NCBI RefSeq assembly: GCF_900537085.1
Contig: NZ_UNRE01000004.1
Span: forward strand, 248,001 to 312,000
Direction: 5' to 3'
Length of the DNA stretch: 64,000 nucleotides
DNA from: Agarivorans sp. Alg241-V36
GTDB taxonomy: Bacteria; Pseudomonadota; Gammaproteobacteria; Enterobacterales; Celerinatantimonadaceae
Made by a program: the position numbers and the translations under genes. The notes beneath the pieces were generated by a model. It made no database searches, had not been told where the DNA came from, and saw only the letters and a list, made by a program, of their open reading frames with translations. Shown here piece after piece: positions 38,941 through 57,507 of this stretch (positions within the stretch are counted from its first letter, which is position 1; each line of letters starts with the position of its first letter).

Positions 38941-40938
38941 TTGACAGATAAAGCACAAAAACTTCGCCAAATGGTACATTCTGTTCTCGATAGTGATGAC
39001 CTCCACACTCACCAGGTTAATGCGGCCACGAAAACCTTTAACGCACTCAAAAATGATATAAGAGCTGTGGTTACTGCTGCAGAAATGCAGGCTGGGAAAT
39101 CAGGGATCGCTCTCGCTCTTTGTTGTATACAACGTCTAAGTTTAAGCGATACTGAGATCTGCGATCGTAAACAGCTCAAAGATACTCTGTACCTTGTTAC
39201 CATGCCTGATACCGCGCTTAAAGAACAAGCTGAAGATGACTTAAAACTAGCTAAAAATGTTGTGGTAAGCAACTTCGTCAATTTCGAAAAAGCTTTAGAA
39301 AATGAATTTAAAGGCAGTCCACCAAAGCTTATCATCATTGATGAGTGTCATTATGGGTCAAACGTATCAGCGGTGAGATACAGCAAGATCTTTGATTACC
39401 TTGAGCAAGAAAACGATAGCTGCAAAGTCGCCTTCATTTCAGCAACGCCTTTTGGTGCTCTCTATGGGGCGGAATCAGAATATCAAGAGGCGATTGATAT
39501 TCAACAAGAAGCAGAAGATGAGAACGACCGAGCTTTAATTCTTGAGGCACAAAAAGCTGCCCATAACGCACTTAAAGATTCAATCCTAAGACGCGATTTC
39601 AATACACGCTTAGTTTTCCATAAGACCAGCGATGAATACTATGGCGTTCGTGAAATGCTCAACAGTGGGAAAGTTAAAGGCCTGGAACAAGACAACAAAA
39701 ACTTTCTCGTTGGCTCTCCTGAGCGAGAAGAATTTATTCGGCAGTTTAAAACTCATGAAGGTATGGGTTGGTCATTAGTTCGGGTTCCTGCGGGCTTTGC
39801 TATGGATGCAAAAGAGTTACTAATTGCTCAAGGGATAGATGAAAATGCTGTTTATATACTTGGAAACTCGCTTAACGGAGTACCAGAGGATGAACATTGC
39901 AGCATAGACCGCTTTAAGCGAGAGTTCGATGATGCAAAGATCTTCGATGATAAACTCATTGCCATTACGGTCGCGGGTGCCAGAGCTGGCATTAACTTTG
40001 GTGCGATGATGAAAAACAACCTTATCTCGACATGGGATAGCACCGTTGCTAGTGTTGCTGCTGTTGTGCAAGCCAATATTGGTAGAGCTTGCGGTTATCA
40101 TGGTAATAATGCTTCGATGCACTATACCAACCTCAATGCAGCTGAAGCTTACGCAGCTATCTTGGACCATTTAGAAAAAACCTGCTCCGATCACGCAGCG
40201 TCAGATTTTGATGGACTCAAAGAATTTTTCGAAGATGTTTGTCAAGAGTACCAAGTAAATGGGTTGGATGTAGGACTCACCATAAAGTATAAACGCCGCC
40301 GTCCGATCGGTGATGTCGAGACCTATCGAACTCACAGTTACGTGGCCGTACCTGCAAAATTATTACAAGACCGCGTCGACTTTAGTCGCTACACCAAAGA
40401 CAAACACCTTCTACAAGCTATCGATATTGTTCGAAACGAGTTCACAGCTAAGGGGGCACCTAGCGTAAAAGGCAACCGAGCTATGCGAGGCAAGACTAAA
40501 AACTGGATTAAAGCACACTGGATTAACGGTGACAGTTACGACAACCCCGAAAAAGCTCGTGCAGATGGCACACAACAAGACAAAACAAAACTCTATACTC
40601 AAATGATAGACAATAATGAGTATCTAGAGTTTAACCGCGTCGTTGCTCCAGGCTCTGGGGAGCTTTCTGAAAATAAACTAGTCACTGCTGCTATTTTTAG
40701 CGTCTACAACATTTCACGTCGTCAAGTAGAAAAGAAGATCATGACTATCGAAGATGTTCACCACATGTGTGATCACTTTGATATAGAGCATGACGACACC
40801 ATGTTAGTTCTATATAAGCGCGGAGAATACGACATCGAGCGCTCTATCGCTAAGAAACAGCATAATGAGCTACCCGAAAAGTCCGGTGATTTAAGCGACG
40901 AATCCCACTTTTCAGATAAAGCTGATTCTAACTTTTAA
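38941..40938 (+). CDS. SF2 helicase/translocase-like ATPase (tandem copy 1)
   Basis: 665 residues; start TTG at 38941. Superfamily-2 motifs are clear: Walker A AEMQAGKSGIALAL (Lys53), DEAD-like box IIIDECHYGS (134-137), motif III ISATPF (~167-171), and a motif VI-like VVQANIGRACGYH (~376-387) with the arginine finger. A 30-40-residue charged insert at ~177-213 is absent from copy 2. The C-terminal ~250 residues contain a MRGKTKNWIKAHWINGDSYD block and an end domain of no known family. There is no nuclease motif. About half identical to the next gene. Function unknown; defence role suggested by the neighbours only. Confidence 0.8.
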   Translation: MTDKAQKLRQMVHSVLDSDDLHTHQVNAATKTFNALKNDIRAVVTAAEMQAGKSGIALALCCIQRLSLSDTEICDRKQLKDTLYLVTMPDTALKEQAEDDLKLAKNVVVSNFVNFEKALENEFKGSPPKLIIIDECHYGSNVSAVRYSKIFDYLEQENDSCKVAFISATPFGALYGAESEYQEAIDIQQEAEDENDRALILEAQKAAHNALKDSILRRDFNTRLVFHKTSDEYYGVREMLNSGKVKGLEQDNKNFLVGSPEREEFIRQFKTHEGMGWSLVRVPAGFAMDAKELLIAQGIDENAVYILGNSLNGVPEDEHCSIDRFKREFDDAKIFDDKLIAITVAGARAGINFGAMMKNNLISTWDSTVASVAAVVQANIGRACGYHGNNASMHYTNLNAAEAYAAILDHLEKTCSDHAASDFDGLKEFFEDVCQEYQVNGLDVGLTIKYKRRRPIGDVETYRTHSYVAVPAKLLQDRVDFSRYTKDKHLLQAIDIVRNEFTAKGAPSVKGNRAMRGKTKNWIKAHWINGDSYDNPEKARADGTQQDKTKLYTQMIDNNEYLEFNRVVAPGSGELSENKLVTAAIFSVYNISRRQVEKKIMTIEDVHHMCDHFDIEHDDTMLVLYKRGEYDIERSIAKKQHNELPEKSGDLSDESHFSDKADSNF

Positions 40939-40978
40939 TCAAACTCATAGGGGAAAGCCCCTATTGTAGAGAAGTACT

Positions 40979-42838
40979 ATGAATACTGCTGATAAACACC
41001 GTCAACTTGTTGAAAACGCACTTTCACAGAACACTTTTGAGCATCAACGCCATGCCGCGAATCAAGCTTTTTTGCAATTTAAAGCAGGCTCTAGGGCCGT
41101 AGTGATTGCCGCTGAAATGCAATCGGGTAAGTCTGGGATTGCGCTTGCCCTCTCTGGACTACAAAGATTGTCTCTTCGTGATGACAGGATAGGTGAAAGA
41201 AAGTACTTAAAAGACACTTTATACTTGGTCACCATGGCGGACATAGCGCTACAAAATCAAGCTAAGCGCGATCTGGCGCCCAGTAAAAATGTAGTTATAA
41301 GTAATTTTACTAACTTCGAAATCGTCCTTAAGAGTGATTTTAAGTATTTGACTCCAAAACTCATTATCATTGATGAGTGTCATTATGGATCCAATATGGA
41401 CAGCGTTCGCTATGAGAAAATCTTCAATTACTTAGAACATGAAAATCCCGGCTGTAAAGTCGCCTTTATCTCGGCGACCCCATTCAGTGCCCTCTATGCT
41501 GCTGGAGCTGATTCGATTCTTCGACACAACTTCAATACTTCTTTAGTATTTCATAAAACCAGCGGTGAGTACCATGGCATTAGGCAAATGCACCGTAACA
41601 ATCAAATAATTAAACTGGATGAAAACTCACGGGACTTTTGCGAAAACTCTTTGCTACGCAACCGCTTCATGCGTCAATTCAAAGAGCATGAGGGCCCAGG
41701 GTGGTCGCTAGTTCGAGTACCAAGTAGTCAAGCTAACACTGCAAGAGATGCCTTACTCTCTTATGGAATTAAACCTCATCAAATCCATATCATCGGCCAA
41801 AAACTGGTCGGTATCGAAGACAATGAACTGTCCTCAATTGATGACTTTAAGCGAGATTATGAAACCGCTGTATTGTTTGATGACAAGCTCATTGCGATCA
41901 CCGTAGCGGGATTTAGAGCCGGTGTTAACTTCGGTCAAGACATGAAGGAAACACTAATAAACTCCTGGGATAGTACCATTGCCAATATTGCGGCAGTTGT
42001 TCAGGCGAATATAGGTAGGGCATGTGGCTATCATCACAACCTCGCTGCAAAACACTACACAAACCTTGATGCTGTTCGAGCCTACGGAGAGCTTCTCGAT
42101 CATCTAGAAGCCAATAACAACAGCAACGAATTTGAAGGTCTTCACCACATATTTGATCAAATATGCTCCCGCTATGATGTCAGAGGCTTTGATCGCGGTA
42201 CCACGATTGCCCCTACAACTGAGACTAAAGTTACTAAGAAGCTTGCTGATAACAAAGTTTATCTAACAAAAGGTTACGTGGCTGTTCCTGGTAAGCTTGA
42301 TGAACCTGGCTTTGATTTCTCCTCCTTTACCGAGGATGAAATGTTACTCAAGGCTATTAGCCACATTCGCCAAGAGCTTCTTAGTGATGATGGACCATAC
42401 AGGAAAAAGAACAGAGCACTCCGTGGCGAGCATCAAAACTGGATCAAAGCACAATGGGTAAACGGTGCGACATACGATGATGGCACTCAAAGCTGCGCTA
42501 AGGCTAAAACCTTAGACTTTACCTCTAAACTAAACTCTGGTGACCAAATATCTTTCAACCAAATAGTTAACCCTGGCGGAGGGGAAAAAACCGAAGACAA
42601 GAAGGTGATGGCCAGTATTTTTAGTACTTACAACCTTTCTGGCCAAATGGATGCGTTTAAACGTTCGTTAGATTTTGATGATATAGAAGAACTCAGCTCT
42701 CTGCTTAACGTAGAAGACGACAACACCATTATTGTTATTTACCAGCGAGGCAAGTTCTCGAAAGAACTGACTGATGAAACGACCAAAGCAAGTCTAGATG
42801 TTCAAGCGACTCGAGTTCGACACAATAGTGTTTTTTAA
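40979..42838 (+). CDS. SF2 helicase/translocase-like ATPase (tandem copy 2)
   Basis: 619 residues with the same motifs as copy 1: AEMQSGKSGIALAL (Lys51), IIIDECHYGS, ISATPF, VVQANIGRACGYH. It lacks copy 1's charged insert. The C-terminal block RGEHQNWIKAQWVNGATYD is conserved, as is YQRGKFS near the end. The start ATG at 40979 is 40 bp after the copy 1 stop; the pair is probably one transcript. It converges on the dprA-like gene ending at 42940. Two divergent but motif-intact copies suggest a heteromeric complex or two retained specificities rather than a recent duplicate. Confidence 0.8.
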   Translation: MNTADKHRQLVENALSQNTFEHQRHAANQAFLQFKAGSRAVVIAAEMQSGKSGIALALSGLQRLSLRDDRIGERKYLKDTLYLVTMADIALQNQAKRDLAPSKNVVISNFTNFEIVLKSDFKYLTPKLIIIDECHYGSNMDSVRYEKIFNYLEHENPGCKVAFISATPFSALYAAGADSILRHNFNTSLVFHKTSGEYHGIRQMHRNNQIIKLDENSRDFCENSLLRNRFMRQFKEHEGPGWSLVRVPSSQANTARDALLSYGIKPHQIHIIGQKLVGIEDNELSSIDDFKRDYETAVLFDDKLIAITVAGFRAGVNFGQDMKETLINSWDSTIANIAAVVQANIGRACGYHHNLAAKHYTNLDAVRAYGELLDHLEANNNSNEFEGLHHIFDQICSRYDVRGFDRGTTIAPTTETKVTKKLADNKVYLTKGYVAVPGKLDEPGFDFSSFTEDEMLLKAISHIRQELLSDDGPYRKKNRALRGEHQNWIKAQWVNGATYDDGTQSCAKAKTLDFTSKLNSGDQISFNQIVNPGGGEKTEDKKVMASIFSTYNLSGQMDAFKRSLDFDDIEELSSLLNVEDDNTIIVIYQRGKFSKELTDETTKASLDVQATRVRHNSVF

Positions 42839-42939
42839 TCGCAGCGATTACGTGGTGTAATCGCCTTAGCCTGGTTACATGACGAGCAAATTTTTCAATA
42901 ACTCTCATCGTTCATAATTGAACAGTAAAACTACCTGAA

Positions 42940-44523
42940 TTAATCAGGCAGCTGATAACTTTTGGCTCTCCCGGGACGTATCAGTTTTTGCTCTGAGACT
43001 AAATGGGCTAACCATTTAGCCAATGACGTTTTTCCCATAATAGAGAACTCAGGGTATTGTTCGGCAATTTCACTTTGAGTGATGGGTTGATTACTGTTTT
43101 GGGTCAGCAAAATCTTCAGTTGCTTATAAAAGTAGTCTAATAACGGCATAGTTAAATTGGATGAGTCGGGTGTTTCAGATTCGATCGAGGCATTTACTGA
43201 TATTGTGTCTTGCTCTAGGCCACTAAACTCAACTGCATCTTGGCTTCCATCATCTATAGCAGTAGAAAGCTGTACCTCGCTCTCTTTTTCATCAGACTCT
43301 GTAAGCTCTACTATCGTAAGCGTTGTTTCACTCAACTCTGCTTGATTCTCTATTCGCGCTTTCTGAGTTGATTGTGTATTTTGCTCAGTAAACAGATCCG
43401 GCGAAAACAAAGTATCTTGGCCACTACCACCAATCCCACCCAATTGGCTTTGTTGGCTCTCAACTTCTGTAGATACCTGTAGGGGGTTAATAAATGCTTT
43501 AACAATATCAATCATGCTCTCAAACGAAGCTTCAGGGGTAACTTTGTGACCTAGCGAGTAACCTTTGGGAAGCCCCTCTCCTGAAAGCAATCCATGATTT
43601 CCCTTTTGCAGAGGTGATTTATGGGCTGATACAAGAAGAGGCACCCAACCTTTATATAAGTTTTCTTTTGCCCCAGACCAAGTCCCCCCTTTTTCTGCCG
43701 ACGTGATCACCATGGTTGCTTGAGAAAGCAGATAGATATATTTATTGCGTGCCATTGCATTGGCTGGAGTAAAACGACTTTCTGGGTAAAATGGGCTAAT
43801 TAATACCAGTTGACCAGACTTTAAATATTGACGCCATTGTCCCACAGCACTGTTTTTAAACAAGCTATCAGACATAACCCCAATAGCATTGTTATCAGCT
43901 TTTAAGGACTGCTCCATTGCATGAGAGTCTACACCTTTGGCCCCACCTGAAACCACTTGATAACCATGCTGGCTGAACTTGGCGACATAATTAGCGGTAG
44001 CTTGTTCATCTTGGCTATCACAGTCACGTGAGCCAACAAAACCAATTGAACGATTAAGCAATAGCTCGGAATTTCCCACACCAAACAAAATAGCAGGGCT
44101 TTGATGTTTTAGCTGCCCCCTAAAGGCTTTAGGGTAATGTGAATGGCTCCTGTCCAAAATCCAGATACCTGCACTTTGCCATTTTTCTAACGCTAAGCTT
44201 AAACTAGCACCACGGTTGAGTAACGCACTAATCCGACCATCATAGATTGCATCAATAGTGTCATCTAGCCTAGAAAAGTTAACCATTTTTTTGGCTTTAG
44301 CATGGCTTAGTGGCAGCTCCCACTTCATCCATATTTCAGTTAGCCTTGTAGCATCTAATAATGATTCCGGATGATAACCATTTTGATGCAACCAACAAGC
44401 GAAGTAACCATACTCATTTATACTGAGAGGCTTACATACTTTCGCTTCTTTACTACTAAATAAACTGGTTAATAATAAAATGGCCTTGGTATTTTCGGTT
44501 ATCATATTTAGCTCTATGCTCAC
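42940..44523 (-). CDS. DprA/SMF-like Rossmann protein
   Basis: 527 residues. The Rossmann (SMF/DprA, SLOG-superfamily) core at ~135-330 shows SIGFVGSRDCDS (163-170), VVSGGAKGVDSHA (~191-202), and NAMARNKYIYLLS; these match DprA's VGSR, SGGA-GID-A and RN-IIS motifs. The N-terminal ~110 residues resemble the SAM-like part of DprA. A long acidic, low-complexity linker (~365-455) leads to a C-terminal winged-helix-like domain. Last gene of the BREX-headed operon, abutting the RecQ-PRTase. Chromosomal DprA acts in transformation; here a role in nucleotide sensing or phage-DNA handling is inferred. Confidence 0.85.
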   Translation of the reverse strand: MSIELNMITENTKAILLLTSLFSSKEAKVCKPLSINEYGYFACWLHQNGYHPESLLDATRLTEIWMKWELPLSHAKAKKMVNFSRLDDTIDAIYDGRISALLNRGASLSLALEKWQSAGIWILDRSHSHYPKAFRGQLKHQSPAILFGVGNSELLLNRSIGFVGSRDCDSQDEQATANYVAKFSQHGYQVVSGGAKGVDSHAMEQSLKADNNAIGVMSDSLFKNSAVGQWRQYLKSGQLVLISPFYPESRFTPANAMARNKYIYLLSQATMVITSAEKGGTWSGAKENLYKGWVPLLVSAHKSPLQKGNHGLLSGEGLPKGYSLGHKVTPEASFESMIDIVKAFINPLQVSTEVESQQSQLGGIGGSGQDTLFSPDLFTEQNTQSTQKARIENQAELSETTLTIVELTESDEKESEVQLSTAIDDGSQDAVEFSGLEQDTISVNASIESETPDSSNLTMPLLDYFYKQLKILLTQNSNQPITQSEIAEQYPEFSIMGKTSLAKWLAHLVSEQKLIRPGRAKSYQLPD

Positions 44524-46626
44524 TTATTGATTTTTACTAGTGGTAGTTAGCGCAATGGGTATCACTTTTGTCACACCAGCCTTTTTTAACAGCGCTCCCG
44601 CAACTGTAAATGTCCAACCAGAATCGAAGGCATCATCAATCAACCATACCGAATCACTGTATATTTTACCAGTGTCAACTCCAAAGGCACCATCTAGATT
44701 TTTAGCTTGATAAAACCGATTTTCCATCGTCTTTTGTGGAGGTCTTTCTTCTGCAATATACAAGGCATCCATACAGGGAACCCCTAGTTTTTCAGCTACT
44801 TTTCTTGCAAAGTCTGGCACCAATGTCGGATGCCTTGGCGATGGAACGTAAGCAACCCACCCAGGCCTCTCTTCATACTCAAGAGAGTTAATCATTTTCA
44901 CTATTGGTGCGACTAATTCATCACTGAAATGATTCTGTTTTTTACCCGAAGCAACCAAATCTCCCCAGCCACCATCTTTCCATGAAGAAAGAGCTACTCC
45001 CGCTTCCAGATCCAAGTTGTTGTTTTTTGCACTATAAGGAAATTCATAGTTAGGAAACGCTAATCTAGCATTTGCTCCAGATGCCGCAAAAGTTGCTTTA
45101 GGTTTAATCGCTATATATCGACTACGCAGAAAATCATTGGCCTTGATAACTAAGTCATGTCTTACCTGTTCTGATAATCTAGAATCAGGCAAACAATTGG
45201 CGCACTTCCCACAGGACTGAGGATTAGCATCATCCAATTCAGTAGATAAGAACTTCATTAAACAACCAGATGACTGATGGTAATCATTTAGCCTATCCCA
45301 CTCTTGTAGCTTTATGCTATTCAGTCGCTCAATCTTTTCGTGAGGCAGTTCATAATCGAATTGGGTTCGGTAGTAAGTGGACTCATCCTTCAGAATAGGA
45401 GAAGGATGCTCAATCCTTAAAAATTTAATAATCTTTTTTACTGTACTTGCTGAAAAGTTCACTTTAGGCTCAAAATCAGAAAGCCTACAACCATCAGTCT
45501 CTTCAATCACTTGCAATATTTGGTTTATTTGATGTTCTTTAGGAAAAGCATTTTCAATAAAATAGCTCTGAATTTGCGCATCTTCCTCGCCCAACATCAT
45601 GACCCCAATAGCACTGTCGATACCACGACCTGCACGGCCAACTTGCTGATAGTATTCAACTACATTTCCAGGGGCTTGATAGTGAATGACAAAGCTTAAA
45701 TCTGGTTTATCAAAACCCATCCCTAAAGCTGAAGTAGCAACCAAACATTTGACATCGTTATTTATGAGCGCTTGCTCAAGCCGTAACTTTTCCGAGTCAT
45801 CATTAATTTGGCTATGATAGGCTAAAGCTGAAATGCCGTATTGCTGTAAAAAGCCTGATACAATTGCAGCATCTTTGGTTGTTTTAACATAAACAATACC
45901 CGTTCCCTCTATTTCGGGAAGATGCTCCACCAGCCAAGCTAAACGCTCTGAACGATTGCTGATGGCTAAAGTATGTAAGCGCAGGCTCTCACGTGTTAAA
46001 GGCCCACGTAAAGAAACTAAGCGTTCACCAAGTTGGTAAACTATATCGTCGACTACACGGTTATTTGCGGTGGCAGTTGTAGCTAATACAGGCATGTTGC
46101 TGGGCATGTTTTTAAGCACCCGTACAATCCGACTATAATCAGGTCTGAAATCATGCCCCCAATCAGAAATACAATGCGCTTCATCCACGACAAACAAACC
46201 AATATTACTACTAATTTGTGGCAGTATATTTTCACCAAAGCCTACGGAAGCCAATTGCTCTGGAGCAATAATAACTGCATCGACTCTCCCTGCTAAAATG
46301 CTACGCTCAGCCGCAGCTTTCTCGTCCTTATCCATAGATGAGTTATAGGAAACTACGTTTAACCCTAGTTTCGCGGCACTATCTATCTGGTTACGAATAA
46401 GCGACAGTAGAGGAGAAATAATGATAGTAGGTCCATAACCCTGGGAGCGACGGAGCTTAGTAGCGATAAAGTAGACAGCACTTTTACCCCAACCAGTTCT
46501 TTGAACCACCAACATCTGATTTTGATGCTCAACTAACCCTTGGATGGCTTCCCATTGATCATCGTGAAAGGTAGCCACTTGACTGCCAGTCATTTCACGA
46601 AGGTAAACTAATGCTTGCTCTTTCAT
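44524..46626 (-). CDS. RecQ-type helicase fused to phosphoribosyltransferase
   Basis: 700 residues. Residues ~1-480 are a RecQ core: Walker A VQRTGWGKSAVYF (~42-54), VDEAHCISDWGHDFRPDY (motif II), TATANNRVV, VGRAGRGID (motif VI), then a zinc-binding CGKCANCL segment. Residues ~580-700 are a ComF-like phosphoribosyltransferase with PRPP loop VWLIDDAFDSGWTFTVAG (660-677) and a YVPSPRHPTL substrate loop. RecQ alone unwinds DNA; coupling to a PRTase with DprA next door suggests DNA unwinding linked to nucleotide metabolism or signalling. It starts 46 bp after pglZ, in the brxL position of the operon. RQC/HRDC domains of housekeeping RecQ are not seen. Confidence 0.85.
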   Translation of the reverse strand: MKEQALVYLREMTGSQVATFHDDQWEAIQGLVEHQNQMLVVQRTGWGKSAVYFIATKLRRSQGYGPTIIISPLLSLIRNQIDSAAKLGLNVVSYNSSMDKDEKAAAERSILAGRVDAVIIAPEQLASVGFGENILPQISSNIGLFVVDEAHCISDWGHDFRPDYSRIVRVLKNMPSNMPVLATTATANNRVVDDIVYQLGERLVSLRGPLTRESLRLHTLAISNRSERLAWLVEHLPEIEGTGIVYVKTTKDAAIVSGFLQQYGISALAYHSQINDDSEKLRLEQALINNDVKCLVATSALGMGFDKPDLSFVIHYQAPGNVVEYYQQVGRAGRGIDSAIGVMMLGEEDAQIQSYFIENAFPKEHQINQILQVIEETDGCRLSDFEPKVNFSASTVKKIIKFLRIEHPSPILKDESTYYRTQFDYELPHEKIERLNSIKLQEWDRLNDYHQSSGCLMKFLSTELDDANPQSCGKCANCLPDSRLSEQVRHDLVIKANDFLRSRYIAIKPKATFAASGANARLAFPNYEFPYSAKNNNLDLEAGVALSSWKDGGWGDLVASGKKQNHFSDELVAPIVKMINSLEYEERPGWVAYVPSPRHPTLVPDFARKVAEKLGVPCMDALYIAEERPPQKTMENRFYQAKNLDGAFGVDTGKIYSDSVWLIDDAFDSGWTFTVAGALLKKAGVTKVIPIALTTTSKNQ

Positions 46627-46672
46627 TACGACCCTACTTCATTATGTTTTGGCGACATTAACGTTTATCTGA

Positions 46673-48739
46673 TTAATTGGTGGACTTTATACTAAGCACA
46701 GGCGTCAAACACTCTTGCAAGCTCAAGCCACCATGGTTGTAGTAGTCGCCAGCAACATAGCCTGATATACCTGGAGCCATTGCTACAGAGACATTTTCAT
46801 TCCAATGCCACGGCACTTTTAACTCAGAAGTATCAACATTATCTTTTAATATTGCACAACGAGCTAAACGCTTTTTCACCATATTTTTGGAAATGCTGGC
46901 TTCAGCTAATTTGTTTGGCACCCATAACCAGCCATGATCAGTAACAATACGGATATTCTTCCAGCCAGCTTTTAATAATCCATCAACTCGAGCAACAACA
47001 TCTTCCAATACAGCATCAATATTCAGTGGCATCTTCATTTGTTGCTTATGCCCCATATTATCTAAATCGCCTGTTTGCACCCAGGCGTTACCTGTAGGTT
47101 TACCTGTTTCTAAACCATCTAAATATTGCCAACTTTTCGCATCTAATGATTTTTTCAAATGGTAAGAGCTAAACTCTGAACCAGAAGTAGCAACCATTGG
47201 CGTAAAGTTATCATTTTCTTGCGCACCAATGAGTAAGTCAGCAACAGGGGTTACAGCCGCTTTTGCGGTAGCGGTTAATGAAGGTAATGCACACCAATTA
47301 GTTTTTAAAGCCGTGCTAACTGAAAGCTTATCTAACTTTTGTTGTAATGCTTTTGCGGTATCGAAACGTAAACCATCAACAAAGAAAACAACCTGACTGC
47401 CGACATCATATTGCGCGGTTGACTCATTAACTTCATCAGATTTCCCAGGCTTACCGGGATAACCTTCCGCCCTAACCAGATTTTGAAAGTTTAATGTGAC
47501 TTGTTCTAACCACGGGGTATAAATTACCGCTAAAATATCAGCCACAATTTGTTGTTGGTTTATATCTTTGGCAACCGCCATAGCATTAATAGCAGCGGCA
47601 TCGGCTTGCCAAAAACGCTCTTTATAGGTATTAGCCATTACTTCTACTGAAGGGCCAGTAAAAGCAATATCAGTATGTTCAACCACTAAAGCTAATTGCT
47701 CTAGAATTGTTAACCAAGGAGATAACTCAAGGCCATACCATAACCATGATTTTCTATCTGCTTGTTGTTCAAAAACTTCTATTATCTGTTTTTTAATAAC
47801 AGTTACATCTTGCCCTGCAAAACCTTCTAACTTATCAGCAATCTCATTTTCATCTTTTAAGTTTTCACATAAAAAGTGGCTGGCATTAAAGGCTAATCCA
47901 ACAGGTTGAACTGATTTCAGCTTTTCAACTAATAAAGGTAAGTTATGCGCCGTATCTTCAAATCGCTGCCACACTGCCTGCCATTCACCTTCTGATTCAC
48001 ACAAGCTAAATAACACTGACTCGATATCAGTGTTCCCTAGGCATAAGTCAGGATCAAAGCCAAAGTTATCCGAACACGTTTGTTTGAAAATAGGCCACTT
48101 ACTGTCTTCCCATAAAGCTTGTTTATCTTCAGGGTTATTTAACCAACCTAGAATATCTTTTGCGGGATCATCCATGACAATATTGATGAAATCTTGAGCT
48201 TCTAGCTTTTTACCTCTTAATGACTCATCTGGTGTTTCTAATAGATCAGGTAATATTTTTAATATCGCTGCTTGAGTCTTTTTGTCTTTGGCTACATCAA
48301 GCTCTAAACCTACTCTTGGGTTAGTTAAAAAAGATCCAACTGACCAATCTCTACCAGCAGTATTATAAGCCCACCAGCAACCACGATACTGAAGCTCAGC
48401 AAGCGGCCTCAATTCATCAGGGCATTGTTCTATTGCTCGTAAATCTTTGCGTCCAACGCCAGGTAAATAAATGATAGGCGTTTTGCCCTCTGGCAATTCA
48501 AGATCTTCTAATACACCTGCAATAGCACATTTAATCCAAATAGCGGGACCAGTTCTTTCGTCAGGATTATATTCACCTAACTCAACTAACTCAGGTAAGT
48601 ACTGCTTAATAGAAGGCATTGCGGATTGCCACTGACGCTCAATATCAGTCCATAAAATAGCAGCAGGCGCTATTTGCACTGCCGAATTATAGTTTGCTGA
48701 GCTTCGTAACTGCGAAGCTAAGTAATCAATTAATTGCAT
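46673..48739 (-). CDS. pglZ: BREX alkaline-phosphatase-fold protein PglZ (short, type-B-like)
   Basis: 688 residues, shorter than the ~830-870 of typical type 1 PglZ. The C-terminal half carries the alkaline-phosphatase fold: metal-binding FVDGLRFDT (453-461) and VTDHGWLWVPN (~609), with the SLTATAKAAVTPV catalytic-Thr-like stretch between. The N-terminal half is helical. PglZ is required for BREX modification and defence; nucleotide or DNA-end phosphatase action has been proposed. It abuts the DUF4276 gene (no gap). The short form is recalled as the BREX-1 type-B variant; that subtype call is inference. Confidence 0.88.
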   Translation of the reverse strand: MQLIDYLASQLRSSANYNSAVQIAPAAILWTDIERQWQSAMPSIKQYLPELVELGEYNPDERTGPAIWIKCAIAGVLEDLELPEGKTPIIYLPGVGRKDLRAIEQCPDELRPLAELQYRGCWWAYNTAGRDWSVGSFLTNPRVGLELDVAKDKKTQAAILKILPDLLETPDESLRGKKLEAQDFINIVMDDPAKDILGWLNNPEDKQALWEDSKWPIFKQTCSDNFGFDPDLCLGNTDIESVLFSLCESEGEWQAVWQRFEDTAHNLPLLVEKLKSVQPVGLAFNASHFLCENLKDENEIADKLEGFAGQDVTVIKKQIIEVFEQQADRKSWLWYGLELSPWLTILEQLALVVEHTDIAFTGPSVEVMANTYKERFWQADAAAINAMAVAKDINQQQIVADILAVIYTPWLEQVTLNFQNLVRAEGYPGKPGKSDEVNESTAQYDVGSQVVFFVDGLRFDTAKALQQKLDKLSVSTALKTNWCALPSLTATAKAAVTPVADLLIGAQENDNFTPMVATSGSEFSSYHLKKSLDAKSWQYLDGLETGKPTGNAWVQTGDLDNMGHKQQMKMPLNIDAVLEDVVARVDGLLKAGWKNIRIVTDHGWLWVPNKLAEASISKNMVKKRLARCAILKDNVDTSELKVPWHWNENVSVAMAPGISGYVAGDYYNHGGLSLQECLTPVLSIKSTN

Positions 48740-49417
48740 TTAATTACTATCTCCTGCGATAGCTTCTATATTAGAAAGCCATTGATCAAATAATTCGCAG
48801 TTATCACGCATTGAATCCAAACCAACTTCTAACGCAGCTAAAGCTCCCATCAAAGGCTTCTCATATCCTCTAATCAAATTAAGTATTCTCTTGCTAGGAG
48901 CCGTTTGAGGGCTATTGTTTATATGCTCTGGTGATTCAAAGTTATCAGCGATTTGTTGGAAATTTCCAACTAAGTCTTCGCGACCCATTCCTAATGCCAT
49001 TTTCTCGGGTTCACTAAATAATAACCCTTCAAATTCATACATTTGAATAAAGGGAATAAAACGTCTCATTGCATCTTGACCAAGCTTGCGAGTTAATTTA
49101 CTCACTAATTCTTCATTAACTTTTTGTGATTTTTGTTGAATAGTATCATTGTGATTTGTAGTCGATTTACCAGGGAAGGTCTCTGGTAGGCCATAGAAAT
49201 CAAAGAATGTAGTACAATAACATTCTGCATCTCCAAGCAACCGATTTTTGACCTCTGGAAGTAAACGGTCAAATTTAAAATTCCCCCCTTTATGTCCAGG
49301 TTTACCAATTAAAGCTGGCAACAATATAATACCTTGAGCTAAGAAAGGCTCAACTAAAAGCTCTTTTACAAATGCTTCCTCTGTTTGTCCTTCACAAATA
49401 ACATGAACTCTAATCAT
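48740..49417 (-). CDS. DUF4276 TOPRIM-like protein
   Basis: 225 residues; starts MIRVHVICEGQTEEAFV with the Glu of a TOPRIM-like active site (E9, E13). The DxD-like acidic pair is FFDFYGLP (D73); a QMYEFEGLLF segment is typical of DUF4276. The start overlaps the ATPase gene by 4 bp, and pglZ abuts directly, so it is an integral cistron of the BREX operon. ATPase plus TOPRIM partners are reminiscent of OLD-type nucleases with the two activities on separate chains. Predicted nuclease; no direct evidence. Confidence 0.85.
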   Translation of the reverse strand: MIRVHVICEGQTEEAFVKELLVEPFLAQGIILLPALIGKPGHKGGNFKFDRLLPEVKNRLLGDAECYCTTFFDFYGLPETFPGKSTTNHNDTIQQKSQKVNEELVSKLTRKLGQDAMRRFIPFIQMYEFEGLLFSEPEKMALGMGREDLVGNFQQIADNFESPEHINNSPQTAPSKRILNLIRGYEKPLMGALAALEVGLDSMRDNCELFDQWLSNIEAIAGDSN

Positions 49418-50517
49418 TTAGATGGCCTCCCACCTAAGATGTTTTTCTCCCAAAGTTCACCAACAGAATAATCTTCCAGCCATAACTTAAAATCATCCTG
49501 TTTTAATCTTTTAAAAACGGATTCACCTTTTTCTCTCTCTACTACAATAATATCTCTTAATTCAAATTCATTAAGTAAAGGAACCGATTGTGTTGAAACA
49601 ATAACTTGCATACGCTCTGAAGCAGAGCGCAATAACGCTCCTAATAAAGTAAGTGCGTAAGGATGGAGACCTAACTCTGGTTCATCAATAATAATTGTAG
49701 ACGGAGGATTAGGTTGCATTAAGGCTGTTACTAAACATATAAAGCGTATAGAACCATCTGACAATTGGCTTGGCCATAATGCATAATCACTATCAGCTTG
49801 TTGCCACAATAATCTAATTTGCTCTTCACCTGATTCAAGTTGTGTTGGTTTTAATACAAAATCATCAAAAAATGGTACAGCCAAACGTACTGTTTTTTGT
49901 ATTTGACTGTAAACATCCTTATTTTCTTTAGATAGTTTATATAAATAAGCAGCTAAATTAGATGCATCCGTTCGCAAATATTCATTATCATGAACTGAGC
50001 ACAGCCTTTTCATAGCCGCTGTATCACTGGTATCGTGAAAATGGAAAACTCGCCACTCTGAAATTGCTGAATAACAAAAACCTGCTACTTTAGCGGAATT
50101 TCCGCCTTTAATTTCTGACTTTAGGTTAGATTCCGTATGGCCTGCGCCAAGGCTCGGCCTAGTCACTCCATAAAGAGGGCCATCAAAATAAAGCTGCTCC
50201 ATATTAAAAGTAAAACCTGAGTTGGCAGTTGGAACCAATTCAGCCGCGTAGCCGTTATCCCCAAAACGTATTGCAGATAATAAAGCTGGAGTTTCTTTAA
50301 TACCGTAACTGAGTATTCGATCGGCTCCACCTTGTTTACTTGTCCATAATTGTAAACGACCTTCCACCTGCTCATGGAGCATTTTAAAGTAGCCCACAAA
50401 ATTACTTTTACCTACCCCGTTTGCGCCTATTAGTACATTCAGGTTGTGCAATTTAAACTGTTCAAGGTTACGAATAGACTTATAACCTTTAATAGTTAGC
50501 CACTTTATTTTACTCAT
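49414..50517 (-). CDS. AAA/ABC-type ATPase paired with DUF4276
   Basis: 367 residues of the OLD/RecF-like ATPase type. Walker A LIGANGVGKSNFVGY (~29-43), ABC signature-like LWPSQLSDGSIRFI, Walker B TIIIDEPELGLHP (~276-288), and the D/H-loop VIVSTQSVPLLNEF. The start overlaps the pglX stop by 4 bp and the stop overlaps the DUF4276 start by 4 bp, so it is translationally coupled on both sides. Together with DUF4276 it forms an ATPase/TOPRIM module nested inside BREX. Confidence 0.88.
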   Translation of the reverse strand: MSKIKWLTIKGYKSIRNLEQFKLHNLNVLIGANGVGKSNFVGYFKMLHEQVEGRLQLWTSKQGGADRILSYGIKETPALLSAIRFGDNGYAAELVPTANSGFTFNMEQLYFDGPLYGVTRPSLGAGHTESNLKSEIKGGNSAKVAGFCYSAISEWRVFHFHDTSDTAAMKRLCSVHDNEYLRTDASNLAAYLYKLSKENKDVYSQIQKTVRLAVPFFDDFVLKPTQLESGEEQIRLLWQQADSDYALWPSQLSDGSIRFICLVTALMQPNPPSTIIIDEPELGLHPYALTLLGALLRSASERMQVIVSTQSVPLLNEFELRDIIVVEREKGESVFKRLKQDDFKLWLEDYSVGELWEKNILGGRPSK

Positions 50518-53500
50518 AACAAATCTCTCGCTTGCTTCTTCTCAGCTAGTGTTAGGTGGTGATCGTTGACACGGTCGCCTTGTTTGCCGCCATATTTTAG
50601 GCCAAGATCAAACCATGGGGCTGAAGGCACGTCGGTACCTCGGTCTTTTTTCCAATGAATGTTTGGTTTTGAGCGCAGTATGCCTGCTTCTTTTTTGCCG
50701 ACGTCTTTGGCTTGCATAAATGGGCGGATGTTTAGGCGTACGCCATCGTTTAGGTCTGGGTTCCAGCCGATTGGTTGTTCGGCTAATGACTTCCAACGTA
50801 CAAAGATATCAAGACCTTCTTTACCGTTACTTTCACCAACAAGAATTGCTTCTAGTTGCTCTCTTAAGTTTCTTGCAGCGGTTAATCTTAGTTCAGCGCC
50901 TTCGTCACCATCTTTTTCTTGTTGAATTTGAGTGCTAATCCAATCATCAAGGTAAGTGTAAATTAAACGTTCTAAGCCTTTGTAATCCAGCGTGTGATAA
51001 TTTACCAATGCCGTGAAGCCATCAGGTAATCCATCCCATATTTGCCAAATAAATGGGCGATGTTGGAATAACTTTGAGTGTTGCTCAAAGAATTTATCAC
51101 GTAGCCATAAGTTTAAGTCGCGAGACTTAACGGACTTTAATAAGTTATTGAGTACAGTAGCAGACCACTGTTCACCATATGCGGCATGTAATATCGCTTC
51201 TAACCTATCAACCGCAGGTTTTTCACCTCGGATTGCTGGAATACAAACAATGCCATCATCATCTACCAAGTCATCAAAGACTTTGTTTTGAGCTATCACT
51301 TCACGCATTTCTGGTGCTAATTCCATTTCAGCATCAAGCTCTGCTGGCCAGCGATAACCTAATAAGCGAGCAACAGCAACTTGCAGCACGGTGTCATCTT
51401 GTCGTGTGTCACTAATTGCAGTGGTTTTTGTTTCTTCATTCCAGATTACTGATGCACAAGGATGACCGTGAAAGATCCATTGTGAAGCAGTGTTAGTGAA
51501 TGGGCTTGGTAACCCTTGTGGATACAATTTGTCAGCAACCTTACTCCATTTTTTTGAATCAAACTCAACTTTAACTAAGGCGCCTCTGACTTTAAGAGCC
51601 TGATCAATTTCTCTGACATCATCATTGTAAAATTCTGAAGAACAGTAAGCCCAAATTTCAGGTAATTGGCTAGAATCCGCAGGTATTATAATTTGTACAT
51701 TATCATCAAAGCATTGCCCATCATACAAGGAAGCGGTTAATGTTCCTGTAGGATTTATAGCAACTCCTTTTTTGCCAAGAGCTGCTTCTCCCCTAACGTA
51801 GGCACGGCCATCTTCAATTGCATCTAGTAGATCTTTACCGTAATTTAATAAAGTATCTCTACCTGAATAAGTTTCTTTCTCTTTTGACGTGCCTTGCCAA
51901 AAAGTCCAGGGTGAAGTTTTCTTATCAAATTCCCAGAATTTTTTGCTAAATCTTAATGTATCTGCTGGAGATATACCTTGTCTTGAAGATGCTATTTCAT
52001 CAAGAATACGATTTTCCCCTCCAGTGGTTGCCTTAATAATTGCATTTCTATTTTTTAATTGTTCAAGTTGTTTAGATAAACGGATTTGTGCTTTATTTAA
52101 ATATTCTTCTTTACCATTAGCGTCTTTCTCATTCGAAACGTTCACGTCTGATATGGTACTTTCTTCATTTCCAGGGGCAGAGCCAATTGTTAACAATTGA
52201 ACATTAAAATCCCACATTGGAGTTTGAAAGCTTTTGGCTCCTAACCTGGAAACAAGTTTAATACTATTCCTTTCTAAAAGTTGGACTCTAAACCCCTCAT
52301 AAGTAGGTAAAAACAAAAAGTTCTGCGGTAGTACAATACTTGAATAACCATTTGTTATTTTTGTATATTCAATACACCTTTCGAGAAATGTTGTAGATAA
52401 GTCCCCTTTAGATTGAAAGTAGTGTTTTTCACAAAAGACTCTAAGTACATCTGATTGTTTTCCCCTTGCTAAATATGGAACATTTGTAACAACCCATTCA
52501 AAGTTAGTCGACATTATGTTCGCAGCCTTTATCAATCCCTTGGCTTTTATAGACGATTCACCTTCTAATTTAACTTCATAGTTGGATCTCGATTGCAAAT
52601 AGTTCCAGGGATTGTTTTTTAGATCATTAGCCCTGGTAGGATCTATTAAACTCCCTAAAGTTGGAGCATCTTTAAATGTTTCCTGCATCCACTTAATTGC
52701 ATCTTGCAGTTCTTCATCGGCTTTAGCTAATTCTTTCCATTCTTTTTGCGCTTCAGCAATCGACATGCCAGAACAAGCGAGCTGTAACTCAGGTAACTGA
52801 CGGTAACCACCAGCACCAGGATAGCGCCATGCTTCAAGTGCTAAAGCAAAAGCAGCCAATTCAACACAACGTTGGTCTAGTTCTAGACCATGAATATTTT
52901 CAGCGATAACTTTATCAATCGCTTGTTTAGCGGTTAATGCCTCTAGCTGCATGCGCATTGGCACTAACATTAAAAATTTAGCAACTAAAAAGTGACCTGA
53001 ACCACAACACGGGTCGAGTGTTTTGAGTTCACTTAAGTCTTCAGGCCATTTCTCAAAATCGCCTGCGGCATTAGACCAACTCTTTACCTTCTCTCCGCTG
53101 TGGGCACATGTCTCTTCATTTTGAACAAAACGAAGGTACTCTAATGGAACACCTGGAATAGCAGCGATTTCTCGCAGTTCTTGTTCACTAGTGGCGGTTA
53201 GTAAATCATCTGTTGATAAGCGTCGTTTTGCCCACCAAGCACCTAAAGCGTTGTCGAGCAAAAAGCTAACCATATAGGGTTCGGTAAATAATTGAGTAAC
53301 CGGGCTTAGTTCTTTAGCACCAATTTTTACACCAGACTCGTTAACCTGTTTTTTCTTTTTATTTTGCCAAAATTGATAACACCAACCTAAAGCATCGGAC
53401 GCTTGAAAAGTGGCTTTATCAAGGGCTGCAATGAGTTCTTCTAATGCATTAACATGGTTAATAGAGAGTTTTACTTCAAACACTGGTGAGTCAGCACGGA

Positions 53501-53954
53501 AAATTTGCGGTAGCATTTTTTGCGCTAATTGCCCAGCTAATTCCCAGCCATCTTTTACATCCGTGCCATCACCTAAAGGATCACCATCCTCAGCTAACTC
53601 AAAACATTCATCTAAGGTAACGTGGGTATTTTGGTCATACATTAACAAGTCATTTTGCTCTAAAAAGCGAGCAAATAGCATACGATGCCAATGCTCGTAT
53701 GCCATTTCATTAATCAGTAACTCAGTTTCTTGTTTGCCAGAGTCGCGATTTAAAACATCACCTAATTGACGACCGTGGGCACGTAAACGTGTTCTTAGTT
53801 TACGGTCTTCGTCTGATAAATAACTTGGTGCACTGCCATCGCTAATACCTAAACGAGTGAGTGCTTCTGTTACTGCAATTTCAACGATGTCACGGGCTTT
53901 TTCTACTGTTTTTTCTAGCTTGCCACGTAAAGCTTTATCTAATGGTGTTCTCAT
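50514..53954 (-). CDS. pglX: BREX adenine-specific DNA methyltransferase PglX
   Basis: 1146 residues. The SAM-binding motif I LDPCCGSGHFLVAKF (~309-323) is intact. Motif IV is VVTNVPYLAR (~489-497): the N and Y of N6-adenine methyltransferases are kept, while the usual NPPY second residue is V. C-terminal target-recognition/specificity region ~680-1146 is long, as in BREX PglX. It methylates a non-palindromic host motif and its target choice sets self/non-self. Gap to brxC 57 bp, overlap with the ATPase 4 bp. Confidence 0.92.
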   Translation of the reverse strand: MRTPLDKALRGKLEKTVEKARDIVEIAVTEALTRLGISDGSAPSYLSDEDRKLRTRLRAHGRQLGDVLNRDSGKQETELLINEMAYEHWHRMLFARFLEQNDLLMYDQNTHVTLDECFELAEDGDPLGDGTDVKDGWELAGQLAQKMLPQIFRADSPVFEVKLSINHVNALEELIAALDKATFQASDALGWCYQFWQNKKKKQVNESGVKIGAKELSPVTQLFTEPYMVSFLLDNALGAWWAKRRLSTDDLLTATSEQELREIAAIPGVPLEYLRFVQNEETCAHSGEKVKSWSNAAGDFEKWPEDLSELKTLDPCCGSGHFLVAKFLMLVPMRMQLEALTAKQAIDKVIAENIHGLELDQRCVELAAFALALEAWRYPGAGGYRQLPELQLACSGMSIAEAQKEWKELAKADEELQDAIKWMQETFKDAPTLGSLIDPTRANDLKNNPWNYLQSRSNYEVKLEGESSIKAKGLIKAANIMSTNFEWVVTNVPYLARGKQSDVLRVFCEKHYFQSKGDLSTTFLERCIEYTKITNGYSSIVLPQNFLFLPTYEGFRVQLLERNSIKLVSRLGAKSFQTPMWDFNVQLLTIGSAPGNEESTISDVNVSNEKDANGKEEYLNKAQIRLSKQLEQLKNRNAIIKATTGGENRILDEIASSRQGISPADTLRFSKKFWEFDKKTSPWTFWQGTSKEKETYSGRDTLLNYGKDLLDAIEDGRAYVRGEAALGKKGVAINPTGTLTASLYDGQCFDDNVQIIIPADSSQLPEIWAYCSSEFYNDDVREIDQALKVRGALVKVEFDSKKWSKVADKLYPQGLPSPFTNTASQWIFHGHPCASVIWNEETKTTAISDTRQDDTVLQVAVARLLGYRWPAELDAEMELAPEMREVIAQNKVFDDLVDDDGIVCIPAIRGEKPAVDRLEAILHAAYGEQWSATVLNNLLKSVKSRDLNLWLRDKFFEQHSKLFQHRPFIWQIWDGLPDGFTALVNYHTLDYKGLERLIYTYLDDWISTQIQQEKDGDEGAELRLTAARNLREQLEAILVGESNGKEGLDIFVRWKSLAEQPIGWNPDLNDGVRLNIRPFMQAKDVGKKEAGILRSKPNIHWKKDRGTDVPSAPWFDLGLKYGGKQGDRVNDHHLTLAEKKQARDLL

Positions 53955-54011
53955 ATTCTTTATTCCTTCGAGCTTGGCTCTAACTAGCTACTAATTTGGT
54001 TCTAGTTTGCT

Positions 54012-57000
54012 CTAACTTGGTACTACTGGGCCATTGCCAAGCTCAGCACGTATTTGTGCTTCAATTTCTGATAACCATTTTTGTAAATCTTGCTCTGATT
54101 CAATTACAGGTTTGTTTAAGCGACAATGTTTAGCTTTTGGTGTTAGCTCACTAATTGCATCTTTAAGTGCAGCATCAAAACGACCTGGCAATGCTGAAAT
54201 ACGATCACTCCATTGCTCAAAGCTGGTTTCTTCAAGTGCATCGTAAACTGCGGCGGCTGACGATAAATCAACACTTGGTATAGTTGAAAGGCTACGTTTG
54301 GATAATAACGCTTGTTTTTTAGCGTCATCTAGCTTTAACCAATTAGCATCATCGGTAAGGTCGCGATGGCAGGTATTAAACTCTTGTTCGTATTCAGCTA
54401 GTTTGGCAGTAATTGCATCGCGCAGCGCAGACTCTGCTTGTTGAAGTAGCGGCGTTACAGGATTTGGCTCAACCAGTAAGCTTCGGCTTTCAACGATTGA
54501 GTCCATTTGCTGTGTTAAATTGGCATGAATAGCTAAGTCTTTACAGTAACGCATGGCAGTTTTTAGCTCTGACCATTGGCTTGTTCTTGCTTTAACTCGA
54601 TCTGCTTGGTCTTGCCATTGCGTGAACTGGCTTTGAATGTCGTCTTTAGCATCAAAGGCTTGTTGTAATTGATCGTTACCTGAATACATTTCGAGGTTGG
54701 TAAGTACACTGGTACTTGGCGCTAATGGTAATGGTGCTTCACCACCTGCACTACGCGCTACTTGTTTAGCGTTAGTTATGGCTGATGGTAGTTTGCTTTG
54801 CTCTTCACCTATGTTGCAATTTTGTCCTTCTGGTAATAATGCGTTAATTAAGCCGCGCACTTTAATAATTTGGACTTTAGACAGCGTGACATTTTCAGGA
54901 CGGAATTTAGTTTGCGTCACTGATGACCTATCAAGGCTCTTAGCATCTACCGCTTTTTCTTGTCCGTCAGAAGCTTTTAATACGCCTGCCGCTAACATGG
55001 CAAATAGCGCACCTTCAATCGTGTCTTTACCCCAACCGTAAGGTGCATCCTTAAAGTTTTCGATAATTTCACGGCCTGTTTTCATCACACCAATAAAACG
55101 TTTTACTTCAGCACACACTGGGTGCTTGTCAGCTTCATCATTATGTTCAATGGCTTCAAGTGCATTAGCATCTGCTTGTGTACTGGCGCGTTGGAATACT
55201 TTTGCCCAACCTTTGTTGTCAGCCATTTTAAATTTACTGAATAAACGCTGGCACGCTAGTACACCTGCATTTTGAATTTGCTCAGCTAGCGATTCACCTT
55301 CAACCTCTTGACCACCTGCTAGTTTTACTTGGATTTGGTCAAAGATGTCTTTTAATATCGCTTTTTTAGCTCGGTCAGCTTCTTTAAAGCGATATTCCAT
55401 AGCCGCGTAAGCTTCCTTACCCGCATCGGTTTTGGCTGTACCACGAACATCAATGGTAGTTTCTGCGGCTTTTAATTCAACAATGGCTTTACGCAATTCG
55501 TCGCGCTGTGTGGTAGGCACATAAATATAAATAGTTGCAGTGTCTGGATTTGCACCACGGGCAAGATCATTAAATTGTTTTTCAGGTACTTCTGGTGCCC
55601 AGGCATAGAGCTTTTTATCAGCATCGTTTGGTAACTCACTGCCAAACTCTAAGTTGATCATACGAGGTTCGGCAACACTACCTTGGGTGATTCTGGCTTG
55701 TGCGACTTGTTTGCGAACATACTGCTGGATTTCTTGTGAGCGGAATACTTCTAAGCGTTGTGGGTTGCTTTTTAGCTCACTTTCTTGCTGTCGGTACATG
55801 TCGTACCATTGTTGGCTTTCAACTGTTTGTAAACGGTATTCTTCGCCTGCTGATGTTTGCATTGGCATTACCAAACCATCATCAACGAGTTGAATTAATA
55901 ATTTAGGTACTATGGCACGTAGCTCGTGTTTGCCTTCAAGTAGGTTCTCTAGCAATAGATCTGAAATAGTATCAGCTGTTGCAGCGATGCCGTATTCGAT
56001 ATCTGTCGGTAATTTACTAATGAGTAAAATCAGTGCAAGAATACGCGCTTGTAATTTTTGGTCGTTATCACCACCTTTTAAGCGGCTAATAGTCTCGTAA
56101 ATATCTTTACCAATGACACCGCTGTTAAGCAATTTTGTGGCGATTTGGTCGTAAATATAATCAGCAGGTACAACGTAACCTAAAGGTTGCTCGGCAGTTA
56201 CTTTAGTTGCTTCGTGTACGACACGTAGCTGGTTTCTTAATTGTGAACCCGTACCTGTTTTGTCTAATGCTGGTAGTACACGCTCCCAAAAACGACGACG
56301 CACGGGCAATAGCGGGTAATCTGCTACCATCCATTTTTCATCATCTTTGTTGTGCTCGATAATACTGCCACGTAAATGACGTGAAATTTCTCCTAGCTCG
56401 TTATCAATAACGTTTTGGATTTGAGGGCGAGCTGTTTCTTTCTTTTGCAGAATGACTTTACGGATGACTGAATCAACATCGGTATCTTCAAGTTGCACGG
56501 GCACTTGGAAACGCCCCATTAAGCGGTTTAAGTTAGCCATGCCTGATAAAGCACTTTGGCCAGTAGCTACAAAGAGTAACTTAGAATTTAAACGGCCATT
56601 ACCACTACAAGTTTCAACTACTTCTTGTACATCAAAGGCTTTCTTAACATCGTCACCAATGTATTGTTGTACTTCATCAAGCACCACTAACGTTAACGGC
56701 AATTCACCATTAACCGCTAATGTATCCATGATTGCGGTAACCATTTCATCATTGGTTACGTCGTCAACAATTTTGTATTGCGCACGTAGCATGTCGCGCA
56801 CTTCTTTTACATCACTGGCAAAGCCTGGTAGTGCTTGAAGTAAGGCATTGCCCATAACTGGAGAAACGTGAAGATTCTTTAATTCATGTGCCCAAGGGTC
56901 ACGACCTTCTTTCGCTTTCGCATTTTCAGTAATGTAGGTTTGTACTTGCTCTAACACACCTCCTTCTTTTAGCCACATAACAAAACGGGCTAAATGGTAT

Positions 57001-57494: not shown

Positions 57495-57507
57495 TTTATT
57501 ATTTACC

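Follow-up and report, generated by a model that had tools for sequence, protein, structure and literature searches.

PsyrTA (RqlHI) as probable exchangeable cargo of a type 1 BREX operon without BrxL

What would a RecQ-phosphoribosyltransferase fusion and a DprA-like protein do at the end of a BREX (bacteriophage exclusion) operon? This question was raised by a 64,000-nt stretch of Agarivorans sp. Alg241-V36 (contig NZ_UNRE01000004.1, positions 248,001-312,000; hereafter the window), in which two adjacent genes at 42940-46626 follow the BREX gene pglZ. An original prediction, made from the letters of this DNA, knew of no firmly named system of such composition and placed the pair in the position of brxL. 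We find instead that the two genes encode PsyrTA, also termed RqlHI, and we favor, at a probability of about 0.6 for the explanation as a whole, that this module is exchangeable cargo of a BrxL-less type 1 BREX system and works there as a suicide-type backup.

The identity of the pair was examined by profile comparison. The PADLOC PsyrT model matched residues 2-699 of the 700-aa first protein (904 bits, 2e-272), and the PsyrA model matched residues 8-525 of the 527-aa second protein (397 bits, 2.9e-119). Based on these full-length matches, membership in the PsyrTA (RqlHI) toxin-antitoxin family is close to certain. The name PsyrTA is credited to Sberro et al. 2013 in PMC8790059 and PMC9122126, and the alias RqlH-RqlI appears in PMC4670107 and PMC9122126 (here and below, cited papers stand for portions of their text). 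The pair is thus already named, an outcome that the original prediction itself had counted against its proposal. As in known PsyrTA, a RecQ-phosphoribosyltransferase toxin is followed by a DprA-like antitoxin; the window differs in its longer PsyrA (527 aa compared to a 398-position model) and in the location of its copy in a BREX cassette slot. Similarly, RqlH-RqlI of Escherichia coli F11 has the domain and gene order of the window, with the phosphoribosyl pyrophosphate (PRPP) loop and the Walker and DEAH motifs present in both, but forms a separate two-gene operon (PMC4670107); the main text of that report is without the terms 'hsd', 'restriction' and 'phage'.

The motifs and the gene placement had been read correctly from the start. 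All motifs were located in the two proteins, and the open reading frame (ORF) coordinates revealed psyrT and psyrA to abut exactly and to lie on the pglZ strand, with 46 bp from the end of pglZ (46673) to psyrT. PsyrT was found to consist of a RecQ-family helicase core (GWGKS, residues 45-49; DEAH, 148-151; QVGRAGRG, 328-335) with Walker A, DEAH and motif VI all intact, a zinc-type cysteine segment (Cys 455, 472, 475 and 478) and a C-terminal phosphoribosyltransferase domain with the PRPP loop DDAFDSGWT at residues 664-672. PsyrA carries the DprA motifs VGSR (163-166) and SGGAKGVD (192-199), matches the Pfam family DNA_processg_A (PF02481, 3.8e-36) and was matched in the PDB by DprA and ShosA (9vzo). 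Across 52 aligned PsyrT sequences, K48 and D148 of the helicase core and D664 and D665 of the PRPP loop were invariant and D668 nearly so, with a DIVD motif at the D668 place in two other E. coli copies. By motif (the F11 protein itself is outside the alignment), residues K49, D148 and D663 of RqlH correspond to K48, D148 and D668 of the window PsyrT. The zinc cysteines are not universal, as the PsyrT proteins of loci L054 and L045 are without them. The phosphoribosyltransferase of the window was weak by Pfam Pribosyltran (E of 0.0032, below the cut-off); at E<=1e-3 this model matched 20 of the 52 aligned PsyrT sequences, and the window protein is outside these 20. An AlphaFold2 model of PsyrT (predicted local distance difference test, pLDDT, of 92.3) had the RecQ core 1oyw as its best PDB fold match; the best 50 fold matches were all RecQ-family helicases, with no phosphoribosyltransferase structure among them, and a PDB sequence search with the C-terminal phosphoribosyltransferase part alone yielded nothing significant.

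Two other identities were weighed. ShosTA resembles the window in combining a DprA-like antitoxin with a phosphoribosyltransferase toxin; the ShosA model scored 82 bits on the window PsyrA compared to 397 bits for the PsyrA model, and, to our knowledge, the ShosTA toxin is without a RecQ helicase fusion. ShosTA, with its stand-alone phosphoribosyltransferase toxin, was ruled out because the domain is fused to a RecQ core in the window. RecQ and DprA are also families of DNA repair and transformation, and the RqlHI authors weighed a useful action on DNA as well as a connection with DNA uptake (PMC4670107), which would suit a housekeeping repair or uptake unit captured by the island. By contrast, PsyrA scored 79 bits against the 191-bit cut-off of the dprA equivalog, and PsyrTA was found to be rare and patchy: at E<=1e-120, PsyrT was detected in 7 of 394 genomes of the order and 11 of 369 genomes of the class, the window's genome included in each (order, class and phylum refer to Enterobacterales, Gammaproteobacteria and Pseudomonadota, the GTDB lineage of the window's source). 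A captured housekeeping unit is thus very improbable.

The pair closes a minus-strand run with the gene order helix-turn-helix (HTH) gene, brxA, brxB, brxC, pglX, HEC-01A-like gene, DUF4276 gene, pglZ-1B, psyrT and psyrA (Table 1). The core set that the window shares with type 1 BREX (brxA, brxB, brxC, pglX and a type 1 pglZ) is complete, and BREX types 5 and 6 were rejected, as PglZ_5 (49.6 of 250 bits) and PglZ_6 (28.9 of 400 bits) were far under their cut-offs. BrxL, present in 76% of type 1 systems (PMC12839542), is missing from the window; no match to either of two BrxL models (PDLC02507, TIGR02688) was found in the window's whole genome.

Related loci were collected through PglZ-1B, which at E<=1e-80 was detected in 7 of 394 order and 9 of 369 class genomes (again with the window's genome in each). 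Seven other loci of the order, from six genomes (L176-L182), served as sister loci together with an Aeromonas locus, L183, which came from a plasmid search with one of the helicases described below (helicase 1) and had its genes called by script. At the corresponding position L181 was found to carry a NADAR antitoxin (PF22397, 2.8e-88), DarT (PF14487, 1.1e-19), a tetratricopeptide repeat protein and a small ORF; L178, a Zeta toxin; L182, an MqsA-type antitoxin with small unknown ORFs; L177, a dynamin, an unknown protein and a patatin; L176 and L179, PDC-M16A and B; L180, a DUF4145-Sel1-SEC-C protein, in which a weak N-terminal match to PDC-M16A is the sole effector-like signal; and L183, unknown ORFs and transposases. 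Counting the window, a recognised toxin or antitoxin is present in 4 of the 9 slots, a dynamin-patatin set in one and a PADLOC candidate defence module in two. The slot of the seven order loci ranges from 953 to 5093 bp, and its genes share the pglZ strand except for one 84-aa ORF in L179, with called starts -1 to 185 bp after pglZ, the Zeta gene of L178 overlapping the pglZ stop by one base. Since pglZ and the helicases are separated by other genes in each of the eight further loci, it is very likely that PsyrTA is cargo of an exchangeable slot.

A swap at this slot was apparent from the closest pair of loci. The nearest relative of the window by PglZ is L181 (93% identical), and the two DNAs aligned at 81-83% identity over 46686-57217, except 51504-52197, and at 68% over 39052-42779. 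By contrast, 42780-46685, a stretch that comprises PsyrTA end to end, failed to align. Because the pair aligns on both sides and not across PsyrTA, the swap is settled. In addition, PglZ is almost identical among L177, L178 and L179 (end branches of 0.013-0.025), yet their three slots differ in content. Boundary repeats were not found at the cassette ends. The slot behind pglZ therefore takes interchangeable cassettes, several of which are toxins or abortive-infection genes. The pairing with pglZ, which the original prediction had proposed to tabulate across genomes, holds for the window's genome and for no other of the 394 order and 369 class genomes, and a conserved BREX-PsyrTA pair was ruled out on this basis. 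One further genome (G658) has both PsyrT and PglZ-1B, on different contigs; beyond these samples, PsyrTA of L054 immediately precedes a PglZ of the same family.

Common to all of these loci is a pair of helicase genes on the far side of the slot. In the window the two genes point toward the BREX run and encode paralogues that are 48% identical, and the motifs AEMQ[AS]GKSG and DECH were invariant across 17 aligned helicase sequences. Homologues of both were found behind pglZ in 8 of 8 sister loci (L176-L183), convergent in 7 of 7 order loci; since L183 was found through helicase 1, this locus is evidence for BREX beside the helicases and not for helicases beside BREX. The seven order genomes identified by their PglZ-1B, the window's among them, all have the pair, and it was detected in none of the eight class genomes with PglZ-1B outside the order, whose nine loci carry brxL. 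Whole-genome searches covered 15 chosen and 56 order genomes, with two in both sets. Among the 56, a helicase was found in the window's genome and G036 only, both with PglZ-1B, and in 0 of the 54 others; all helicase matches in the seven positive genomes sit at the BREX locus. Searches of viral contigs and of E. coli DNA with helicase 2 yielded nothing, and the BrxHI/BrxHII helicases of BREX types 5 and 6 were rejected as an identity, as neither convergent helicase matched a PADLOC family at E<=1e-3. A tree of PglZ placed the window in a supported group (98/99) with all other order loci but L182; L182 and L183 join this group weakly (57/40 for all nine). Taken together, the helicase pair probably supplies the DNA-motor role held by BrxL elsewhere, in agreement with the argument that BREX types 2 and 3, which are without BrxL, use superfamily 2 (SF2) helicases in this role (PMC12839542).

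This arrangement bears on whether PsyrT itself replaces BrxL as DNA motor and working core part of the window BREX. The place is that of brxL, as the original prediction had stated, since pglZ is immediately followed by brxL in 9 of 9 PglZ-1B loci that come from class genomes of other orders (L160-L168); BrxL is absent from the window's genome, and PsyrT is, by its modelled fold, a predicted helicase. By contrast, neither BrxL nor PsyrTA was seen in the fetched stretches of the eight sister loci, the helicase pair, a better substitute, is common to all of them, and PsyrTA coexists with brxL in L112, L054 and L045. Thus, the claim holds for position and not for function: PsyrTA is better viewed as swappable cargo, and its substitution for BrxL, which we find scarcely credible, was rejected.

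Table 1. Features of the BREX region, with coordinates in the window
Feature	Position	Strand	Remarks
HTH protein, MAD1 family	58833..59141	-	First gene of run; NF047737 86 bits, cut-off 80
brxA	58054..58836	-	PADLOC BrxA 1.7e-99
brxB	57508..58053	-	PADLOC BrxB 4.8e-74
brxC	54012..57560	-	NF033441 872.7 bits
pglX (BrxX), adenine methyltransferase	50514..53954	-	PADLOC PglX 1574 bits
HEC-01A-like AAA_21 ATPase (slot 1)	49414..50517	-	PADLOC HEC-01A 4e-145
HEC-01B-like DUF4276 protein (slot 1)	48740..49417	-	PF14103 8.8e-47; PADLOC HEC-01B 1.3e-76
pglZ, BREX-1 PglZ type B	46673..48739	-	NF033450 850 bits, cut-off 400
Slot 2, variable cassette slot	42839..46672	-	3834 bp; filled by PsyrTA in the window
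psyrT (rqlH-like)	44524..46626	-	700 aa, ATG start; PADLOC PsyrT; predicted toxin
psyrA (rqlI-like)	42940..44523	-	527 aa, GTG start; DprA/SLOG-type; predicted antitoxin
Terminator-like hairpin	42929..42953	-	At psyrA stop codon; possible operon end; weak
Convergent helicase 1	40979..42838	+	619 aa; DEAD/ResIII-type, weak matches; tandem paralogue of helicase 2
Convergent helicase 2	38941..40938	+	665 aa; DEAD/ResIII-type, weak matches

Other parts of the region were also found to vary. The stretch 51504-52197, which is part of pglX, could not be aligned with L181, its flanks being 81-83% identical in DNA; this is probably a swap of the target-recognition part, and the methylation site may therefore differ. 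The interval between pglX and pglZ (48740-50517) is a second variable slot across the sister loci: the HEC-01 pair is common to the window and L181, a DUF262-like protein (45-57 bits) is found in L177-L180, an AAA_21 ATPase with a 202-aa ORF in L183, and nothing in L176 and L182. A 569-aa S-adenosylmethionine-dependent methyltransferase-like gene (59237-60946) lies on the strand of the BREX run, upstream of it. A serine recombinase-like gene (38005-38562) stands beside the helicase pair and a tRNA-Met gene at 28449-28525; these are a possible means and site of island movement. A MAD1/excisionase-like HTH gene opens the BREX run of the window, and small HTH genes that resemble it open the hsdMS-PsyrTA-hsdR runs of E. 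coli (L113, 6451-6675) and G742 (L141, 4857-5096); they are perhaps a shared regulator type.

PsyrTA was also found inside other modification-based operons, namely four further BREX, five type I-like and two DUF499 loci. It lies between pglX and DUF262-pglZ-brxL in Acinetobacter (L112), between pglX and pglZ-brxL in Accumulibacter (L054), between brxC-Schlafen and pglX in G1083 (L151) and behind brxL in a Spirochaetaceae BREX (L045). Of the type I-like loci, three (L113 of E. coli, G064 and G742) have it between hsdS and hsdR; in L051 it is part of an hsd-like run that also has HerA and Schlafen genes, and in L042 it follows GmrSD-HsdS where the contig starts. In L009 and L036 it adjoins DUF499/DUF1156 BREX-related genes. 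In L009 (7185-16757), from a Verrucomicrobia metagenome-assembled genome, PsyrTA shares one run with HEPN-DUF499 and with a DUF1156 protein that has a methyltransferase-like motif, and this run follows an OLD-type ATPase. On a PsyrT tree of 96 rows, the 12 embedded rows required 11 changes, at least 7 of them forced by starred branches, and from this scatter nesting arose several times; the scatter was like that of shuffled labels, which required as few as 11 changes in 170 of 500. By strict profile calls, 6 of 100 PsyrT loci touch restriction-modification (RM) or BREX core genes, compared to 18 of the 812 remaining genes in these loci (Fisher p=0.039). Excluded from this count were ORFs <150 aa, loci lacking a PsyrT ORF that reaches 350 aa, profile scores <=40 bits, gaps >=400 bp, and DUF499 and Schlafen neighbours. 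A separate, unpooled set of six plasmid/E. coli loci gave 2 of 6 compared to 4 of 102 (p=0.035). In the phylum, a search revealed partial PsyrA matches at ~1e-41 in G128 and G134.

The hsd-nested form was followed within E. coli, where 54 of 5426 genomes matched its psyrT; by records, 54 of 55 matched at >=99% and one at 73.5%. Among five annotated records, the hsd layout was seen in four, and the 73.5% copy (L118) is stand-alone; a single element read in four copies (L113, L117, L119 and L120) was counted once. Two copies of the hsd-PsyrTA element are present in E. coli isolate 68, one on plasmid P3 (L113) and one on the chromosome (L120), with psyrT 100% identical; judged by sequence, the element has moved recently.

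Several results weigh against a PsyrTA that is tied to BREX as a suicide device, and some of these would suit an independent toxin-antitoxin module of the defence island, one that would keep the island in place through addiction or act in a defence of its own with no functional tie to BREX. Embedding in modification operons was not seen for 84 of the 96 PsyrT of the tree set (some at contig ends or with unscanned neighbours), and a mostly embedded PsyrTA was ruled out by the same 12 of 96; rqlHI of F11 is an operon apart from its neighbours (PMC4670107). The enrichment within loci is modest, with p=0.22 for the genome_contigs loci alone and p=0.058 for the Pseudomonadota loci alone, and a shared defence island therefore explains much of it. 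By contrast, psyrTA of the window lies 46 bp behind pglZ on the same strand, other cassettes occupy the same position in eight further loci, up to the Zeta gene that overlaps the pglZ stop, and in E. coli, G064 and G742 it is hsdS and hsdR that enclose PsyrTA. We consider the independent module unlikely.

The remaining adverse points concern the toxin, the slot and the helicases. In the F11 system, the RqlH helicase mutants K49A and D148A still reduce viable counts and the phosphoribosyltransferase part alone is non-toxic (PMC4670107), so that the toxic step is not simple. PsyrTA of E. coli NILS69 expressed in K-12 caused only a growth defect, with protection undetectable (PMC12409345). Two of the nine slots (L180 and L183) are without a recognisable effector. 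Terminator-like sites in the region numbered 16 compared to a mean of 16.5 in shuffles, and scans of the region for terminators and promoters were at or below chance level. BrxL was searched for genome-wide in the case of the window and, for the sister loci, within the fetched stretches; as several of these stop within brxC, brxA was visible only in L176, and brxB only in L176 and L183. AlphaFold2 of helicase 2 without an alignment reached a pLDDT of 31.6, with no usable fold, and a PDB profile search with the 17 helicase sequences returned no match.

With these points taken into account, we still favor PsyrTA as exchangeable, suicide-type cargo, and its mode of action can be sketched from studied relatives. 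Toxicity of F11 RqlH requires the phosphoribosyltransferase site D663, and RqlI binds RqlH and counters its toxicity (PMC4670107); PsyrTA is said to protect by abortive infection in PMC10855318, which cites others for this. In ShosTA, the toxin disturbs purine pools, ShosA binds DNA and T7 Gp0.7 triggers ShosT, according to a review (PMC12593503). In the window, the chassis would consist of brxABC-pglX-pglZ(1B) and the two convergent tandem helicases, with BREX methylating self DNA and blocking unmodified phage. PsyrA, as a DprA-like DNA-binding protein, would keep PsyrT in check, and psyrTA may be co-transcribed with pglZ. By analogy to RqlHI and ShosTA, phage DNA, replication intermediates or loss of BREX would engage or remove PsyrA and release PsyrT, the RecQ motor of which may bring the PRPP-using domain to DNA for an attack on nucleotides or DNA, and the cell would stop before the phage matures. 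A coupling of DNA sensing to a nucleotide reaction, as originally proposed, remains plausible. That the cassette is a suicide-type effector seems reasonably likely. We propose only tentatively a BREX subtype in which the helicase pair replaces BrxL and the cassettes of the pglZ slot, armed by way of the operon, go off once BREX is blocked or overcome; a functional coupling of PsyrTA itself to BREX, with the trigger that this supposes, is a more doubtful suggestion still.

Related arrangements have been described. A BREX survey (PMC12839542) reports PARIS, Schlafen, HEPN and OLD modules inside BREX as accessory effectors with a proposed backup role, as in the window; the in-BREX effectors it catalogues in the portions available are nucleases, and its main text makes no mention of RecQ, DprA, phosphoribosyltransferase, SLOG or Psyr. 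Neither convergent tandem helicases nor a cassette slot was found in these portions or by term searches. An 'intruding' recQ and dprA are drawn inside an Acinetobacter BREX cluster, as in the window (PMC10117892); these genes differ in that they are not named PsyrTA in the portions available and lie between pglX and pglZ of a brxL-bearing BREX. In the literature searched (few subscription journals, no supplements, and papers in part), no description of a pglZ-side slot or helicase pair in BREX was found, which bears weakly on novelty. Thus, the PsyrTA pair is already known, and the group of BREX loci without BrxL, marked by convergent helicases and an exchangeable slot, is a new form of BREX as far as this literature goes.

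For the PsyrTA family, deletion of rqlHI left fitness unchanged in the assays used (PMC4670107), and one PsyrTA expressed alone in K-12 did not protect (PMC12409345). The presence of PsyrTA in a slot where sister BREX loci carry DarT, Zeta and others makes a role as a partner of BREX, and not alone, worth considering. The slot position flags effector candidates, and the helicase pair is a candidate BrxL replacement in some type 1 systems without BrxL. If the proposed subtype with its armed cassettes is real, a replaceable suicide device would stand guard over BREX.

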